A stretch of DNA of 64,000 nucleotides from Tatumella ptyseos ATCC 33301 (GTDB lineage Bacteria > Pseudomonadota > Gammaproteobacteria > Enterobacterales > Enterobacteriaceae): positions 62,001 through 126,000 of the forward strand of contig NZ_JMPR01000038.1 in NCBI RefSeq assembly GCF_000735525.1. Direction: 5' to 3'. Within the stretch, counting starts at the first letter, position 1. Each line of letters begins with the position of its first letter. The translations under genes and the position numbers were made by a program. This document shows positions 36,736 to 43,742 of the stretch, in pieces. The notes beneath the pieces were generated by a model. It was not told the DNA's origin. It ran no database searches and saw only the letters and a list, made by a program, of their open reading frames with translations.

Positions 36736-37623
36736 TCAGATCCCTCCCGCCAAATATTTATCGTGCGTATGCTCACCATCCCAGTCCCTTTTCATAGGGA
36801 GTGCACCTTTGAGGTATTTCCGGTATAGCCATACGGCACCAGCCCTGAGTAGAACTGGCTGATAGGTTGTGAAGCTGGCTGAGGCATTGGGGGTGACCTG
36901 CACTGATTTCTCTGTCAGATACTTATCTCTGGCTACTGACTTCACACGCCACTGAGCATGTCGGCCCTGAGGGTTATCGTCATACAGCCAGTTAGCTGAC
37001 TGGAGATAAGTGCTGATTTTTGATGTGTTCACACCATTAAGGCGCTTACAGAACTGGACCGGAGACAGACCTTCAGCAAAGAGTTCCTCCAGGTGTTCGA
37101 TGTATTCAGCCTGTTGGTGAGTCAGTTGCTCAGCCTGCTGTTTTGCTTCCATAGCGTCAGCCCAGGCCCTGGCCAGTTGAATCGGATCATCAATGTTGGG
37201 CAGCATAACGCCGTACACTTCCCGCAGATTGAAGTAACTGTCTTCTAATTTCTCGAAGAAATCCCAGGCCTGGTTAGTATCAACAATCTTGGACATGCGG
37301 GCAGCGCCCTTCTCTGTCCACAGAGTCAGTGACCTGGCATTACTTCCAACAGAGTTACTATTAGCTACTCTGTTCTTGAACACCTTTAACTCTGATCCTG
37401 TTATTAGAAAATAATGGATACCTTCTTCAAACCGGTCGATATTGCGAGAGAGATTTGTCCTGATGTTTCCTTCATCAGTACCATAGCCAAGAGCAAGGGT
37501 TTCCGTTGTGACAACGCGCATGCCCTGGTAGGACAAGACTGGAAGGTTTGCTGATACGCCAGACAGCGCAACAGAATTCAAACGGTTCGCGGGCGTGATA
37601 GCCCCATTCGTAGGTAAGGACAT
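36736..37623 (-). CDS. ORF6N-domain antirepressor
   Basis: A 295-residue antirepressor. The N-terminal ORF6N domain (residues ~20-120) includes LPVLSYQGMRVVTTETLALG, NIRTNLSRN and LTLWTEKGAARMSKIVDTNQ. The C-terminal part (EELFAEGLSPVQFCKRLNGV) resembles KilA-C/DUF4231-like phage regulators. Such proteins inactivate phage repressors. ATG 37623 has a perfect GGAGAAAA; the longer frame is not needed. A truncated second copy lies at 40491. Confidence 0.8.
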   Translation of the reverse strand: MSLPTNGAITPANRLNSVALSGVSANLPVLSYQGMRVVTTETLALGYGTDEGNIRTNLSRNIDRFEEGIHYFLITGSELKVFKNRVANSNSVGSNARSLTLWTEKGAARMSKIVDTNQAWDFFEKLEDSYFNLREVYGVMLPNIDDPIQLARAWADAMEAKQQAEQLTHQQAEYIEHLEELFAEGLSPVQFCKRLNGVNTSKISTYLQSANWLYDDNPQGRHAQWRVKSVARDKYLTEKSVQVTPNASASFTTYQPVLLRAGAVWLYRKYLKGALPMKRDWDGEHTHDKYLAGGI

Positions 37624-37718
37624 AGTTTTCTCCACACTGATTTTATATCGGTCCCGCCCCATCATCTGCAAATGAACGGGATCAACCTTTGCTGCGAGTA
37701 CTGCAATACACCAGCCAG

Positions 37719-37980: not shown

Positions 37981-37994
37981 GGGCATTCGGTAAA
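37981..37994 (+). repeat. 14-bp direct repeat, left of HEPN gene
   Basis: GGGCATTCGGTAAA recurs exactly at 38828-38841. A looser relative (CCATTCAGTA after a TTTTTTACGCCCTTCTG) lies behind the SLOG operon at about 40433-40463. These may be junctions where cargo genes were exchanged. Confidence 0.6.
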
Positions 37995-38178
37995 TCGCAC
38001 CATTGCTATACAACCACACCACAAGCACTACATGTTGTGCTTTTTAATAGAGAAGATTACACATATAGTGAGCACTTGGGCAGGAGAATATAAGTGCAGA
38101 ACGCCTGGGTTTCCCTGCTGTGTTTTAATTATGTCAACAACCATGCTACATTTGATTTTTTAAACGGAGATGAACATT

Positions 38179-38775
38179 ATGGATCAAAAAAGTCTTAATA
38201 ATCTCTTTAAAGAATACCAATCCAAACATAATAAACATTTAACTCCTGAACTAGATATGACATCATTGGTACTGAAGTCTCATCTTTTTTTAGAAGAAAT
38301 ATTGTATGAAATTGTCTTGCTTCATTGCAAGACTCCTAAAGTTTTAGAGGGTGTTCAATTCTCTTTTCATCATAAATTGAAATTAGCTGAAGCACTTTAC
38401 GGAGTTCATCTGTATAAGCTAAAAATCCCAGGGGGTGTCTGGCCTGTACTTGATGCGCTAAATAAACTTAGGAATGATTTAGCTCATAAAATAGATAGTC
38501 CAAAGCTTAAAGATAAAATTGTTAATTTTTTAACATCATCAGAAGAAAACCTGATGAAAGATAGAAAATTGCGTCCACTTAATGAAATATTATTCGAACC
38601 TAAGCTTTTAACGGAAAGAATGCGCTATGTCTTATGGTGTTTACTTGGATGGCTTGGTTGCATGCACGGTATAATATACTTAAATCCGCCCGAAGAGTTC
38701 CTGGCATCTATCTTTGCAGAAATTAATCTTAAAACCAGTGCAGAACGCGTAATTTTTCCTGATCTGTTTGAATGA
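38179..38775 (+). CDS. HEPN-like protein (RxxxxH motif)
   Basis: A 198-residue helical protein with LRNDLAHK (Arg98, His103), the R-x4-H motif of HEPN RNases, and an alpha-helical surround (FLEEILYEIVLLHC; HHKLKLAEAL). HEPN proteins act as RNA-cutting toxins or defence effectors. Start ATG 38179, 9 bp behind GGAG; the ATG at 38170 overlaps that site. AT-rich, unlike the phage core. It stands alone between 14-bp direct repeats, so no antitoxin partner is obvious. Confidence 0.6.
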   Translation: MDQKSLNNLFKEYQSKHNKHLTPELDMTSLVLKSHLFLEEILYEIVLLHCKTPKVLEGVQFSFHHKLKLAEALYGVHLYKLKIPGGVWPVLDALNKLRNDLAHKIDSPKLKDKIVNFLTSSEENLMKDRKLRPLNEILFEPKLLTERMRYVLWCLLGWLGCMHGIIYLNPPEEFLASIFAEINLKTSAERVIFPDLFE

Positions 38776-38827
38776 TGCCGCTAACCACGTCAAACGAGCT
38801 GCTATGCTGCTTTTTACGTCCTTCTTC

Positions 38828-38841
38828 GGGCATTCGGTAAA
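38828..38841 (+). repeat. 14-bp direct repeat, right of HEPN gene
   Basis: Exact copy of 37981-37994, directly downstream of the HEPN-like gene. Together the two bracket that gene as a unit of about 860 bp. Confidence 0.6.
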
Positions 38842-38857
38842 ACGCTTAAACTACCGG

Positions 38858-38885
38858 CACATGTAATACGAGTGTATTACATGTG
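38858..38885. promoter_or_regulatory. Perfect 12-bp inverted repeat upstream of the phosphoribosyltransferase operon
   Basis: CACATGTAATAC, spacer GAGT, GTATTACATGTG; every base pairs. It lies ~100 bp before the phosphoribosyltransferase start. No T-run follows, so an operator is more likely than a terminator. No regulator gene is adjacent. Confidence 0.6.
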
Positions 38886-38985
38886 AGGTTGCCTAGATTG
38901 ATTCTGGTTTACGCTCAATCTTTCGGATAAATCCTAAATGATGTATGTTGATTCCGTACTCAATCTTAACAGCAAGGGATGACGC

Positions 38986-39573
38986 ATGAATGTAAATATA
39001 AAACAAATTTCGGGTAACTGGGATGAAGGATATGCAATGGATAAGCATATGAAAAAAAGCACATATTTAGGTGATAATGAGTATGGACGTCCACAGTTTC
39101 ATAACGAGCGTACAGAAGTAGGTGAAGCTGTATACCAGCTCAAATATCAGGAAGACTGGAACCAAGTTGATCCACTGGCTGAATGCCTGTTGCAACATGC
39201 AGTACCGCTGTTTAAGGACATTCAGTTAATTATACCTATGGCTGCGACCAAACCCAGGACTATACAACCCGTTACGGCTGTAGCCACTGTTCTTGCTGAA
39301 AAAATGGGGGGAGGAATGGGATATTTCGACGGCATGATCCTTAAGCAGGCAGGCGGTACGTCCTTAAAAGATCTGCACACCAGAGCCGAAAAAGAAGCGG
39401 CAGTTGCTAATATGTTTTCCTATCAAGATCTTATACCGAGCAGCGGGAAGTATAACGCCCTCATAATCGACGATCTCTACCATACAGGCATTTCAATGGA
39501 AGCTGCGGTAGCAGCCCTTCGCGGTTATAATAAAATCAACAAAATCTATGTAGCGGCGCTGACCTGGAGATAA
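38986..39573 (+). CDS. Phosphoribosyltransferase-family protein (operon gene 1)
   Basis: A 195-residue type I phosphoribosyltransferase-like protein. The PRPP-binding loop is ALIIDDLYHTGISMEAAV (residues ~158-175: hydrophobics, two Asp at 162-163, Thr-Gly). The upstream half (LIIPMAATKPRTIQPVTAVA) resembles ComF-like enzymes. Its substrate base is unknown. The AAGG ribosome-binding site is 8 bp before the ATG. The SLOG gene follows 2 bp later, so these act together, probably in handling a nucleotide or base. I know no named system with exactly this set. Confidence 0.75.
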   Translation: MNVNIKQISGNWDEGYAMDKHMKKSTYLGDNEYGRPQFHNERTEVGEAVYQLKYQEDWNQVDPLAECLLQHAVPLFKDIQLIIPMAATKPRTIQPVTAVATVLAEKMGGGMGYFDGMILKQAGGTSLKDLHTRAEKEAAVANMFSYQDLIPSSGKYNALIIDDLYHTGISMEAAVAALRGYNKINKIYVAALTWR

Positions 39574-39575
39574 CC

Positions 39576-40133
39576 ATGACGACGACAGTTTTCGTTGCTG
39601 GCTCAATAACCATAAAGAAACTTGATCATCTTATCGTTGAGCGGTTGAAAAAGATTGTGGACCAGAAGTTTAACGTTATCGTTGGTGACGCAACAGGCGT
39701 TGATTCATCGGTTCAGCAAGAACTCCTTGATATGGGGTGCAGGGCAACTACTGTCTTCAGCAGTTCACCTAAACCACGCAATAACCTTGGTTCGTGGCCA
39801 GTGAACGTGGTTCAGACACATCACGCGCCCGGAACACGCGCATTCTTTACGGCAAAAGATATAAAGATGGCTGAGGCTGCGGATTATGGGCTTATGGTGT
39901 GGGACACTAAAAGCCCTGGAACATTAAGCAACGTCTTAGAACTTTTATCGCGTAAGAAAAGCTCCGTTGTTTTCATTAATAAGACAAAGGAATTTGTCAT
40001 TATTAAAGAGCCGAAAGATGTTGATAATCTGATTAACTTTATGTCGGCTACGTCACTTCAGAAAGTTGAAGAAAAAATTAAACTTTCCGAAAAGCTGTCT
40101 CTTATTAAGAATCAGCAAATGGCTCTCATTTAA
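39576..40133 (+). CDS. SLOG/Rossmann nucleotide-binding protein (operon gene 2)
   Basis: A 185-residue protein whose N-terminal ~130 residues are a SLOG-like Rossmann fold: VFVAGSITIKKL at the start, NVIVGDATGVDSSVQQELLD (residues ~33-52), and MAEAADYGLMVWDTKSPGTL (~108-128). This resembles YpsA/DprA-like nucleotide-binding proteins used in conflict systems. The C-terminal ~50 residues are charged and helical. It is translationally close to the phosphoribosyltransferase. Confidence 0.75.
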   Translation: MTTTVFVAGSITIKKLDHLIVERLKKIVDQKFNVIVGDATGVDSSVQQELLDMGCRATTVFSSSPKPRNNLGSWPVNVVQTHHAPGTRAFFTAKDIKMAEAADYGLMVWDTKSPGTLSNVLELLSRKKSSVVFINKTKEFVIIKEPKDVDNLINFMSATSLQKVEEKIKLSEKLSLIKNQQMALI

Positions 40134-40152
40134 TTTCCTTGCTGGAATAGAT

Positions 40153-40410
40153 ATGAACGATAAAGAAACTCGTATTCTGGAAGAACCCCAAACGTTATTA
40201 AATTTAGGCTCTGCTTACACAAAAGCCCGAGAGGAATATCTCAGCGAGCTGGCTAGGGACTGTGAACGTTCTGACGGTAGTGGTGTACAGGAAGCGAGGC
40301 GTGATGTACATCAGAATGAACTGCGGGAAGCCGAGCGTTCAGCAGAATCCGCTCCTAATGCACAGAAGCAACTCGTTACCAGACTGACGGAAGAGTATTT
40401 ATCCCGCTAA
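40153..40410 (+). CDS. 85-residue charged protein (operon gene 3)
   Basis: A short helical protein rich in Glu and Arg (EARRDVHQNELREAERSAES), no recognised family. It starts at ATG 40153, 19 bp behind the SLOG gene, and ends just before a strong terminator, so it is the last gene of the operon. A longer frame from 40066 overlaps the SLOG gene and is unlikely. Confidence 0.6.
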   Translation: MNDKETRILEEPQTLLNLGSAYTKAREEYLSELARDCERSDGSGVQEARRDVHQNELREAERSAESAPNAQKQLVTRLTEEYLSR

Positions 40411-40412
40411 TG

Positions 40413-40438
40413 AAAAGCCGCCGCGAGGCGGTTTTTTT
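40413..40438 (+). terminator. Intrinsic terminator of the SLOG operon
   Basis: CCGCC-GCGA-GGCGG with flanking A and T pairing, then seven Ts, directly after the stop of the 85-residue gene. Confidence 0.85.
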
Positions 40439-40490
40439 ACGCCCTTCTGCTGCCATTCAGTATGACGTTAAGCCTAGTCCGCTTTTCGCT

Positions 40491-40928
40491 CTAAGCAGAC
40501 TTCCATACTGATTCCATAGCATCAGCCCAAACTATGCCCAGTTGAATCGGATCATCAATATTGGGCAGCATAACGCCGTACACTTCCCGCAGGTTGAAGT
40601 AACTGTCTCCCAGTATCTCGAAGAAATCCCAGGCCTGGTTAGTATCAACAATCTTGGACATGCGGGCAGCGCCCTTCTCTGTCCATAAGGTCAGAGAACG
40701 TGTTTTGCTGGAAATTTGTGCGTCAGGATTACTGACTCGCAAATCAGCAAGCTCTTTTCCAGATACGGTATAAAGGTGTAAACCTTCAATAAAACGCTGA
40801 CGGTTGGCGTCCAGATTGGTGCGGATGTTTGTAACTCTGGTGCCATAACCTTCTGCCAGGGTTTCGGTCGTAACGACACGGACACCCTGATAGGATAAGA
40901 CTGGAAGGTTTACTGATGCGCCAGGCAA
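40491..40928 (-). pseudogene. Truncated duplicate of the ORF6N antirepressor
   Basis: A 145-residue frame matching residues ~18-170 of the antirepressor at 36736 (MPGASVNLPVLSYQGVRVVT, then a divergent middle, then an almost identical LTLWTEKGAARMSKIVDTNQ AWDFFE). It lacks the C-terminal half and the true start. DNA upstream repeats the 55-bp block. It might still make a protein that interferes with the full one. Confidence 0.75.
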
Positions 40929-40983
40929 ATAAGCTTACTACAGGTGCTGATTAAATATCCAGTTACTACTTACGTTTTGTGCC
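40929..40983. repeat. 55-bp repeat, copy B
   Basis: Copy of 37719-37773, joined directly to the truncated antirepressor start. The ~150 bp that separate gene and block in copy A are missing here. Confidence 0.8.
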
Positions 40984-41145
40984 TGGAACATTAAATGGTG
41001 GTATGCAGGTTCTGAGGTAATAAAAAAATTATAATTTTGAACGAGGTAGTGATATTATTAACAACTTAAGTATATGTAACACACGTGAAGTCTATCCCAG
41101 TAGCACTGCATATTGATTAACAGAAAATTAACCCGGGAGGTAGTC

Positions 41146-42048
41146 TTGAGCGAATCCACTATAATCCTTGCTAAAGAATCAATTTCAGAAGGAATTGAGG
41201 CAAAAAAAATAAATGAAATAAGAACCCTTAGTGATGATGAACTTGAAACATATGATAAAAAAACAAATATACTTATGGAGTTTGTGAACGATTTTTCTTT
41301 AGTAGAATATGTAAAATTGAACTATGAGTCACTAATGGAACTTCTGAGTGAAACAATTATAAAAGCAGCAAAAGAGCCTTCCTTCATTGGTTCATATCCA
41401 TTCAAAACCTTCCCATCCCTTTTTAACTCACGAATACTGAACTATCTGATGTCAGTGAAAACTTTACTCGAACATATGGAAACTAGTATTAACAGGCGGT
41501 ACGGGGAGGAATCAACAGAACTTCTCGAATTTAAATCGCTGACGGCAAATGAATTTGACAGTAAATTTTCATATAGGTTCATGTATAAGCTCAGAAATTT
41601 TGTTCAGCACTGTGGAATGCCTCCACTTTCGCACACTATATCAAAATCACTTGATGAAGTCAGTAATACTGTAAGTGTAGAGTTAATTGTCTATTTTATA
41701 AGAGATAAATTAATTCAGGGATTCTCAAAGTGGGGGGCTCAGGTAAAGGCTGACTTAAAACAGATGGATGAATCCTTCCCAACAATCCCGATTATTAATG
41801 AACACATAAATTCCATTTTTAAAATTTATGTTATATTCAATGAAAAATATCACATAACTAAAGCTTTAGAAGCGAAAGAGTATATAATAGATTTCATTGG
41901 AGAGAGAGAAAATTACATTGATGATGAATATATTATAGCGAAAATAAAGAAAACCGAAACAGGCTTGAGTATAAACAAAAAAACCATTCCCACATCAGCA
42001 CTTCAGAAGATATCCGATTTTTATATAATAAAAGAACATTTATTTTAG
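41146..42048 (+). CDS. HEPN-like protein, 300 residues
   Basis: A helical AT-rich protein with KLRNFVQHCGMP (Arg150, His155), an R-x4-H HEPN-type motif, and no other recognised domain. The start is TTG 41146, which has GGGAGG 5 bp upstream; an earlier TTG at 41113 has none. It is convergent with the metallo-beta-lactamase gene. It could be an RNA-targeting effector, but the family is not known to me. Confidence 0.5.
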   Translation: MSESTIILAKESISEGIEAKKINEIRTLSDDELETYDKKTNILMEFVNDFSLVEYVKLNYESLMELLSETIIKAAKEPSFIGSYPFKTFPSLFNSRILNYLMSVKTLLEHMETSINRRYGEESTELLEFKSLTANEFDSKFSYRFMYKLRNFVQHCGMPPLSHTISKSLDEVSNTVSVELIVYFIRDKLIQGFSKWGAQVKADLKQMDESFPTIPIINEHINSIFKIYVIFNEKYHITKALEAKEYIIDFIGERENYIDDEYIIAKIKKTETGLSINKKTIPTSALQKISDFYIIKEHLF

Positions 42049-42437: not shown

Positions 42438-43742
42438 TCAATACTCATATTGAACATATACACCTTGTTTACGATCTGCGGTATGCACAACCGAGCTGCT
42501 GAGATCTCCCTGCACCTGGGGATGTGGATGGTGCTTTGTGCCAGATGCACAATGTAAAAATTGCGCAGGAGCAAGCAAACTAGCATTACCTAATTCCCAC
42601 GAATGTTGAGAGCCATGGTGAGGAACCTGTACCAAGCCAATTCTTTTCCAGCGTCCTGTTCCCAGATGGTTTTGGATATCTGAAATCACTGATGAAGTAA
42701 GATGAATATCGCCAGTACAGAGTGTAGCCAGCCGATCGGTAGGCTCCTTCGTTTTCCGCATAATAGTATTCAAGCGTGTCCAGCCGAAAAGACGGCTTGA
42801 GAATCTATTTGCGTGCTCACTCACATGAAATTGACAGGATGTTTCTCTCATAGGTGCGGCATACATACATAGCGAAATATTATTCTTGGCTCTGCCAGAG
42901 TGTCCAAAATGTCTTTCATAGCATTCTTTTAGTGTTTTTCTCCAATCTGGAGGGATTTTCGATAAATGCTGGTGTAGGTTAATATTCATGATGGTGTTCT
43001 GAATATCTCTTTTGACATCGGATAATAGACTGCCTGAGTGTCTTGCATACAATTTTCCATTTCGCTGTATAATCAACCCTAGGGTGGCAAAGTCTTTTTC
43101 AGCATTATAAAAGACGAACTCAAAACCCATGTTTAAGGCTTGAATAGAGCGATCATGACGGAGTATTCTAACTCTTGGAACACCAGACATCGTAGAACCC
43201 AAAGAAAAGTAATTCTGACTGAAACGTCTGATATCATCCTCCTGCTGAAAATTGCTCGGTTCTGGTTCAGGCTCATCATCACCGTAAGGAACAGGCGAAG
43301 TACCCGCTCCACCCTCAATCAGTACAATCTCTTCAACACGATCATCAAAATTTTTAGATGTTAGCCATTTAACTGGATTGAGTTGCATTAGCGATGTTGA
43401 GGGTGAAGTGCCTTTTTTGCCCATAACCGAAATTTCTCGCACGGTCTGCGCCCATTCTGAATATGGGAGCACCAGCGTTTTAACACGACAGTTCCTCAGA
43501 ATCTCTTCGACGCCGTTTACGTGATCATTATCGAAATGCGATAACACTAACATATTAATGGATTCTGGCCATCCGTACCGTGTTATTTCCCCTAATACAC
43601 GGTTGAGTGTACTCATGCTTGTGGAGCCACAATCATAAACCCAATTGAAAGTCTCTGTTGCATTCCAGCCTGTGATACTACCTGATTTAAAAGTGCCATT
43701 TCCTACCGGATGAAATCTTTGAGTCACTATAAGCGATGTCAT
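42438..43742 (-). CDS. ComEC-type metallo-beta-lactamase-fold hydrolase
   Basis: A 434-residue MBL-fold enzyme. Metal-binding HFDNDH lies at residues 69-74 (HxDxDH type), and the C-terminal part has ATLCTGDIHL and VQVPHHGSQHS, like the stand-alone ComEC/Rec2 nuclease domain. Substrate is probably nucleic acid or a phosphodiester. It has no membrane part. It lies where phage dam has been broken, so it came with an inserted cargo block. Similar enzymes are found in conflict systems; no partner is certain here. Confidence 0.7.
   Translation of the reverse strand: MTSLIVTQRFHPVGNGTFKSGSITGWNATETFNWVYDCGSTSMSTLNRVLGEITRYGWPESINMLVLSHFDNDHVNGVEEILRNCRVKTLVLPYSEWAQTVREISVMGKKGTSPSTSLMQLNPVKWLTSKNFDDRVEEIVLIEGGAGTSPVPYGDDEPEPEPSNFQQEDDIRRFSQNYFSLGSTMSGVPRVRILRHDRSIQALNMGFEFVFYNAEKDFATLGLIIQRNGKLYARHSGSLLSDVKRDIQNTIMNINLHQHLSKIPPDWRKTLKECYERHFGHSGRAKNNISLCMYAAPMRETSCQFHVSEHANRFSSRLFGWTRLNTIMRKTKEPTDRLATLCTGDIHLTSSVISDIQNHLGTGRWKRIGLVQVPHHGSQHSWELGNASLLAPAQFLHCASGTKHHPHPQVQGDLSSSVVHTADRKQGVYVQYEY

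Follow-up and report, generated by a model that had tools for sequence, protein, structure and literature searches.

What does a phosphoribosyltransferase (PRTase) gene followed directly by a gene for a SLOG-domain protein do inside a prophage? The question is raised by a 64,000-nt stretch of Tatumella ptyseos ATCC 33301 (contig NZ_JMPR01000038.1, positions 62,001 to 126,000; hereafter the window), in which three plus-strand open reading frames (ORFs), a 12-bp palindrome and a terminator lie where an initial annotation had placed them. That annotation took the three ORFs for one candidate new nucleotide-based conflict system carried as prophage cargo. We find that the first two ORFs form a conserved gene pair, which is likely to be a compact toxin–antitoxin or abortive-infection module of a lambdoid prophage, in which the SLOG protein would restrain the PRTase and be tied to the DNA polymerase sliding clamp.

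A conserved PRTase–SLOG gene pair

The first two genes encode the proteins that had been proposed for them, as judged from predicted folds and from a loop that binds phosphoribosyl pyrophosphate (PRPP). This loop, LIIDDLYHTGIS (39460..39495, plus strand), is a motif of established meaning in PRTases, and its residues D162, D163 and G168 are invariant across 65 aligned PRTases. The ORF has a PRTase fold throughout, with no fused RecQ-like helicase. For the SLOG model, the top Foldseek match is ShosA (E 7.1e-5), with other SLOG folds reaching equal or higher Z.

The pair also co-occurs elsewhere, a point on which the initial annotation had made its proposal depend. Queried with the PRTase alignment, bacterial and archaeal genomes gave 236 relatives, and a SLOG gene lies downstream of the PRTase gene in all 80 loci kept as the best of these. 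Searching IMG/VR with the SLOG alignment yielded 25 loci, 22 of them with a full PRTase upstream; the other three have a truncated PRTase (L116), start at the contig edge (L121) or hold a partial SLOG gene without a PRTase (L131). The spacing between the two genes is 2 nt here and ranges from -8 to +11 nt in 122 of the 124 loci that were kept when minus-strand or short PRTases had been left out. Among the 398 genomes of a phylum sample, the SLOG protein found matches in eight, one of them only at 5.6e-4, and a PRTase adjoins the SLOG gene in all seven strong matches, its own genome included; the distribution in the order sample is sparse, with 3/394 genomes matching, again counting its own.

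Plasmid records were matched by the PRTase in 56 cases and by the SLOG protein in 97, the surplus including relatives from Mesorhizobium, Shinella and Planktothrix, three of which, when examined, had no PRTase annotated alongside; no match to the family was found among 50,697 GenBank phage records. The hosts seen are mostly Proteobacteria, with the addition of one Listeria plasmid, and most of the listed plasmid records label the genes ‘ComF family protein’ and ‘hypothetical protein’. By our reading, partition, replication or toxin–antitoxin genes lie near the pair in half of the annotated plasmid loci (9/18: L002-L005, L015, L021, L023, L025 and L205; the sequences of L019 and L202 carry no annotation). 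The pair is a conserved two-gene operon found on mobile elements. Two further settings were observed: in Neisseria gonorrhoeae (L019, 3492-4606) the pair sits between apparent carA and carB genes, as judged by eye from their translations, and on a Sinorhizobium plasmid (L018, 1-4935) it is preceded by nucleotidyltransferase, HNH and SIR2 genes, a stretch that is likely a defence island.

PRTase toxins with DprA/SLOG-type antitoxins are known from RqlHI/PsyrTA and ShosTA (PMC4670107, PMC9122126, PMC12593503; all articles cited here are drawn on in part), and the likeness to them upholds the suspicion of a conflict system. The PADLOC model for PsyrT matches all 17 PRTases scanned at E <= 0.01 (best 1.3e-19), that for ShosT matches 16 of the 17, with a value of only 9.5e-4, and PF00156 is matched by 12 of the 17 relatives at E <= 0.01. 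Profile comparison of the PRTase gives E 9e-11 with PsyrT and E 1.5e-4, a distant relation, with ShosT, which ranks second by Z when the PRTase model is compared by structure. In the tree, the PRTase family is sister to PsyrT with weak support (89/59) and falls outside the two ShosT rows, whose long branches make their placement unsure; 14 ComF proteins form a separate clade (100/95). The ShosT family search, dominated by ComF-like proteins (195/200 genomes), was used only to collect ComF and ShosT rows. The PRTase has no match in PHROGs, where the SLOG protein reaches 1.6e-7 to phrog_289. By sequence, the SLOG protein compares with ShosA at E 0.0035 and finds nothing specific in the PDB; its profile reaches PsyrA at E 0.029, whereas PsyrA reaches DprA at 6e-25. 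Assignment to YAcAr (PF10686) as a SLOG subfamily was rejected, the match being a single weak one below the cut-off in 40 genomes, seen without a comparison set.

The kind of system is therefore one already known, and the claim of novelty stands in a narrower form. Both window proteins stay below the curated cut-offs of Pfam and NCBIfam and have no more than partial or weak matches in PADLOC and PHROGs; the pair therefore appears to be a distinct, apparently unnamed branch of the PRTase–SLOG toxin–antitoxin kind. No description of it was found in the literature searched; an earlier mention in Sberro 2013, Burroughs 2015 or the ShosTA structure paper is possible. RqlHI/PsyrTA resembles it in operon layout, with the PRTase toxin gene ahead of the gene for a SLOG-fold antitoxin, in PRTase sequence and in the C-termini of PsyrA (see below). 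However, RqlH is described as a RecQ-like helicase of 698 aa with a C-terminal PRTase, and RqlI as a 400-aa antitoxin of the DprA clade with a helix-turn-helix (HTH) domain, whereas the present PRTase has 195 aa, no helicase and a clade of its own, and the SLOG protein has 185 aa and no HTH. ShosTA likewise joins a PRTase to a SLOG/DprA-fold antitoxin, and is set apart by the distance of ShosT in sequence and by its separate long branch; ComF (ComFC), the competence PRTase, is set apart by its clade. The polyvalent-protein and solo PRTases of invasive elements are similarly encoded by phages and conjugative elements and share a conserved arginine with ComFC-like PRTases, but in the portion of PMC5512222 available they are described without a SLOG partner other than in a DprA-coupled helicase system. 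Finally, three PADLOC models for the PRTase effectors of type III-A retrons gave weak matches in 2, 1 and 1 of the 17 relatives, but no reverse transcriptase is annotated in those plasmid stretches that carry annotation.

Clamp-binding-like motifs in the SLOG C-terminal tail

Many SLOG proteins of the family end in short motifs such as QADMF, QSEMF, QIQMF, QSELF and, in Listeria, QIKLF, or in QLGLAL, QLALPV and QLSLAI, all similar in form to QL(S/D)LF, the motif for clamp binding, and to QLVLGL of Pol IV (PMC6204406). When proteins shorter than 165 aa and near-duplicates were left out (131 reduced to 70), a strict motif, either Q..[LM]F (24/70) or Q[LFIMV].L.[LIVF] (14/70), was present in 38 of the 70 non-redundant tails, compared with a mean of 2.0 and a maximum of 8 over 2000 shuffles. 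The same pattern occurs in 4/70 when residues 1-165 of these proteins are searched and in 5/70 PRTases, and a more diverse subset gives 17/39 against 1.2 in shuffles (max 6). Shuffling does not remove shared ancestry, and these figures are therefore not probabilities. A loose form, Q..[LMF], is found in 61 tails, but shuffles also give 21/70. Reading by eye nine SLOG proteins beyond these 70, including some near-copies, gave two with the strict form, five with the loose form and two with no motif.

PsyrA carries tails of this kind as well. A wider pattern occurs in 11 of 18 PsyrA C-termini (last 30 residues; L147-L154, L192-L201), with 1.5 expected (max 6), examples being QKKLF, QKHLF, QSSLF and QQSLF, and the same wider patterns were found in none of six DprA, 14 ComF and six PsyrT proteins. 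Two ShosA-like proteins are without the strict form, a difference from the present family, and one of them ends in the loose form; by eye, no such tail is seen in three SLOG relatives that lack a PRTase neighbour, one of which is just a short fragment. The presence of clamp-binding-like motifs on SLOG tails and on PsyrA antitoxins is what is new here. The words sliding clamp, DnaN, beta clamp and replisome are absent from the available text of PMC4670107, no general literature search on clamp binding having been made.

Additionally, 23 of 131 SLOG proteins (loci not de-duplicated; printed tails read by eye) bear a C-terminal HTH domain, of at least two kinds, and TIGR02684, ‘addiction module antidote protein’, is matched by 2 of 17 SLOG proteins scanned; the window copy has no HTH. 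Such fusions, where they have the motif, keep it in front of the linker, a position that argues against a C-terminal degradation tag.

A proposed restrained toxin and the alternatives

We favour a toxin–antitoxin relation because known PRTase–SLOG systems behave in this way. The PRTase domain of RqlHI is genotoxic, and mutations in its PRPP pocket abolish most of the toxicity, leaving modest effects; the two proteins, RqlI and RqlH, interact, and rqlHI begins with the toxin gene (PMC4670107). Protection against T7 and lambda is conferred by a DprA–PRTase pair (PMC9122126), and according to a review ShosT, whose antitoxin is ShosA, is both a phosphoribosyl transferase and a pyrophosphatase and disturbs purine metabolism (PMC12593503). 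The pattern of gene damage in the present family is supportive only, comprising four cases: the PRTase is broken next to an intact SLOG gene in L006 (insertion sequence), L098 (stop codon), L116 and L204 (both truncated). None of the loci fetched shows the reverse, and both genes are damaged or missing in L022, L203 and L209.

For the toxicity of the PRTase, its neutralisation, clamp binding and the trigger, we infer the following course of events. A free ComF-like PRTase would use PRPP to disturb the nucleotide pool or to modify nucleobases, and its action would damage DNA and stop growth. The SLOG protein, encoded by the next gene, would restrain the PRTase and sense nucleotide or DNA state; across the family, its C-terminal tail probably docks on the sliding clamp (DnaN), which would tie the restraint to normal replication. 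Disturbance of replication by a phage, or loss of the element, would then release the PRTase. Weighing against this proposal, one native-host study detected no protection by PsyrTA and saw a growth defect with it (PMC12409345), and the window tail QMALI fits only the loose form of the motif. Since that form is frequent in shuffles, the clamp step is a good hypothesis for the SLOG family and a weaker one for the window copy.

In a more general form, which we put forward tentatively and rate at somewhat less than an even chance, the antitoxins of PRTase systems in two SLOG subclades (the present family and PsyrA) would dock on the sliding clamp by their C-terminal motif, placing the toxin under the control of replication-fork state, and would act as a guard that is tethered to the replisome and senses phage takeover or collapse of the fork. 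ShosTA is reported to be triggered by T7 Gp0.7 (PMC12593503), and a protein–DNA complex from phage replication has also been put forward (PMC10732053). If true, clamp docking could account for the way in which such toxins are linked to DNA damage, for PsyrA as well as for the present family. The pair would represent a minimal version of the RqlHI/PsyrTA/ShosTA kind, consisting of two small, well-folded proteins.

The tail could also be read differently. It might bind the PRTase partner and not the clamp, plugging the PRPP site as the neutralising element: PsyrA and the present family both partner PRTases and share this kind of tail, which the six DprA proteins lack, and the model is at its least confident in the tail (a predicted local distance difference test score of 72 in the last block). 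We consider this doubtful, as the motif alternates between two shapes that resemble the clamp consensus and the Pol IV peptide. Were the tail to block the clamp, the SLOG protein would itself be the toxin and the PRTase its antitoxin. A toxin that blocks the clamp exists in SocB of Caulobacter; this arrangement is nevertheless very unlikely here, given that intact SLOG genes persist without a working PRTase in the four loci named above and that some SLOG proteins bear antitoxin-type HTH domains.

Other readings dispense with a toxin. A defence pair built on a nucleotide signal, produced by the PRTase and sensed or cleaved by the SLOG protein, with no toxin–antitoxin relation between them, would agree with the description of SLOG domains as nucleotide sensors or enzymes (PMC9503650), with the fact that PRTases make nucleotides and with a nearby gene for a metallo-beta-lactamase (MBL)-fold protein that has weak matches to defence proteins. 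We regard it as unlikely, since the loci seen share no conserved effector gene of their own beside the pair, the third gene being an insertion (see below), the HTH fusions match antitoxin families, and the PRTase is the member found broken alone. An accessory function in nucleotide salvage or ComF-like DNA uptake, useful to the element without being a conflict system, is very unlikely in view of the separate ComF clade, the SLOG partner seen throughout the best 80 loci, the location on mobile elements and the sparse distribution.

The cargo region and its prophage

The features surrounding the PRTase–SLOG pair, which we read as a probable toxin–antitoxin module, are listed in Table 1.

Table 1. 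Coordinates of the PRTase–SLOG pair and adjoining features in the window
Feature	Position	Strand	Remarks
Inverted repeat	38858..38885	.	perfect 12-bp, 4-nt loop; no sequence conservation; may serve as a local operator
PRTase ORF	38986..39573	+	195 aa, ComF-type fold, predicted toxin/effector
SLOG Rossmann protein ORF	39576..40133	+	185 aa, predicted antitoxin/sensor
Tail QMALI	40116..40130	+	position of the clamp-binding-like motif; fits the loose form only
Third ORF	40153..40410	+	85 aa, inserted locally between the SLOG gene and the terminator, outside the module
Terminator	40412..40438	+	hairpin with T-run; common to relatives, there directly 3' of the SLOG gene
Full antirepressor (ORF6N/KilAC)	36736..37671	-	left bound of the cargo
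Partial second antirepressor copy	40491..40928	-	right bound of the cargo

The initial annotation had counted the third gene as a member of the set, a claim that did not hold up. The terminator (-17.9 kcal/mol, z -3.1; bounds approximate) recurs in L001, L002, L012 and L029 and in the near-copy loci L006 and L013. In the first four, which are distinct relatives, it begins 25-26 nt past the SLOG stop, compared with 280 nt here, where the third ORF intervenes, and we therefore regard this ORF as inserted. It has no match in 72,556 plasmid or 50,697 phage records, and occurs in one of 149 family genomes, its own, and in one IMG/VR contig, which shows no difference from the window across the 10,585 bases compared, the latter search reaching close relatives only. 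On these grounds, a role of the third gene as effector was rejected.

The palindrome exists as described, with all 12 positions of its arms paired (38858-38869 and 38874-38885), and is the only repeat in the window with arms >=11 (loop <=12), such a repeat arising in one of ten mononucleotide shuffles. Its place as a part of the system did not stand on the present evidence: among 112 upstream regions, kept after those shorter than 150 nt, containing N or duplicated had been left out, four have arms >=12, the present one included, and all four differ in sequence. A conserved operator was accordingly rejected, even though arms >=9 are commoner upstream than in shuffles (7/112 against 1.0), an excess that may come from upstream terminators or local operators. 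A promoter scan of 38000-41200 gave four sites, against 6.9 in shuffles, with none between the palindrome and the PRTase start.

The assignment as prophage cargo was corroborated by the lambdoid phage genes around the pair, which encode antitermination protein Q, DUF968, an antirepressor, a phage replication-type protein and a CI-like repressor, the last two roles being our reading of their domains. The cargo runs opposite to the neighbouring minus-strand phage genes. It is bracketed by the full and partial copies of a duplicated antirepressor gene (92.7% alike across 177 nt), an arrangement suggesting that the cargo was inserted at this gene by recombination. The genes had also been called AT-rich, which is mildly true of the pair (GC 0.437 and 0.418; the window as a whole has 0.494); strong AT-richness resides in the neighbouring ORFs at 38170-38775 (GC 0.332) and 41113-42048 (GC 0.321). 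These two ORFs flank the pair and each contains an RNxxxH stretch (RNDLAH and RNFVQH), which we take to be typical of HEPN RNases; a Pfam scan of both gave no match above the cut-off. The MBL-fold protein, encoded at 42438-43742, has partial matches to the defence proteins LmuA, Avs1a and RTasMBL. Together, the MBL-fold gene, the PRTase–SLOG pair and the two AT-rich ORFs suggest that the prophage carries a defence island.

A boundary motif, GGCATTCGGTAAAACG, was rejected as a general recombination site; it occurs in 14 IMG/VR contigs, one of which is the present locus. Short repeats around this motif at 37982-37997, 38811-38849 and 40434-40471 mark the boundaries of cargo cassettes in the window, and similar sequence is also found downstream of the SLOG gene in L002, L025 and L029.
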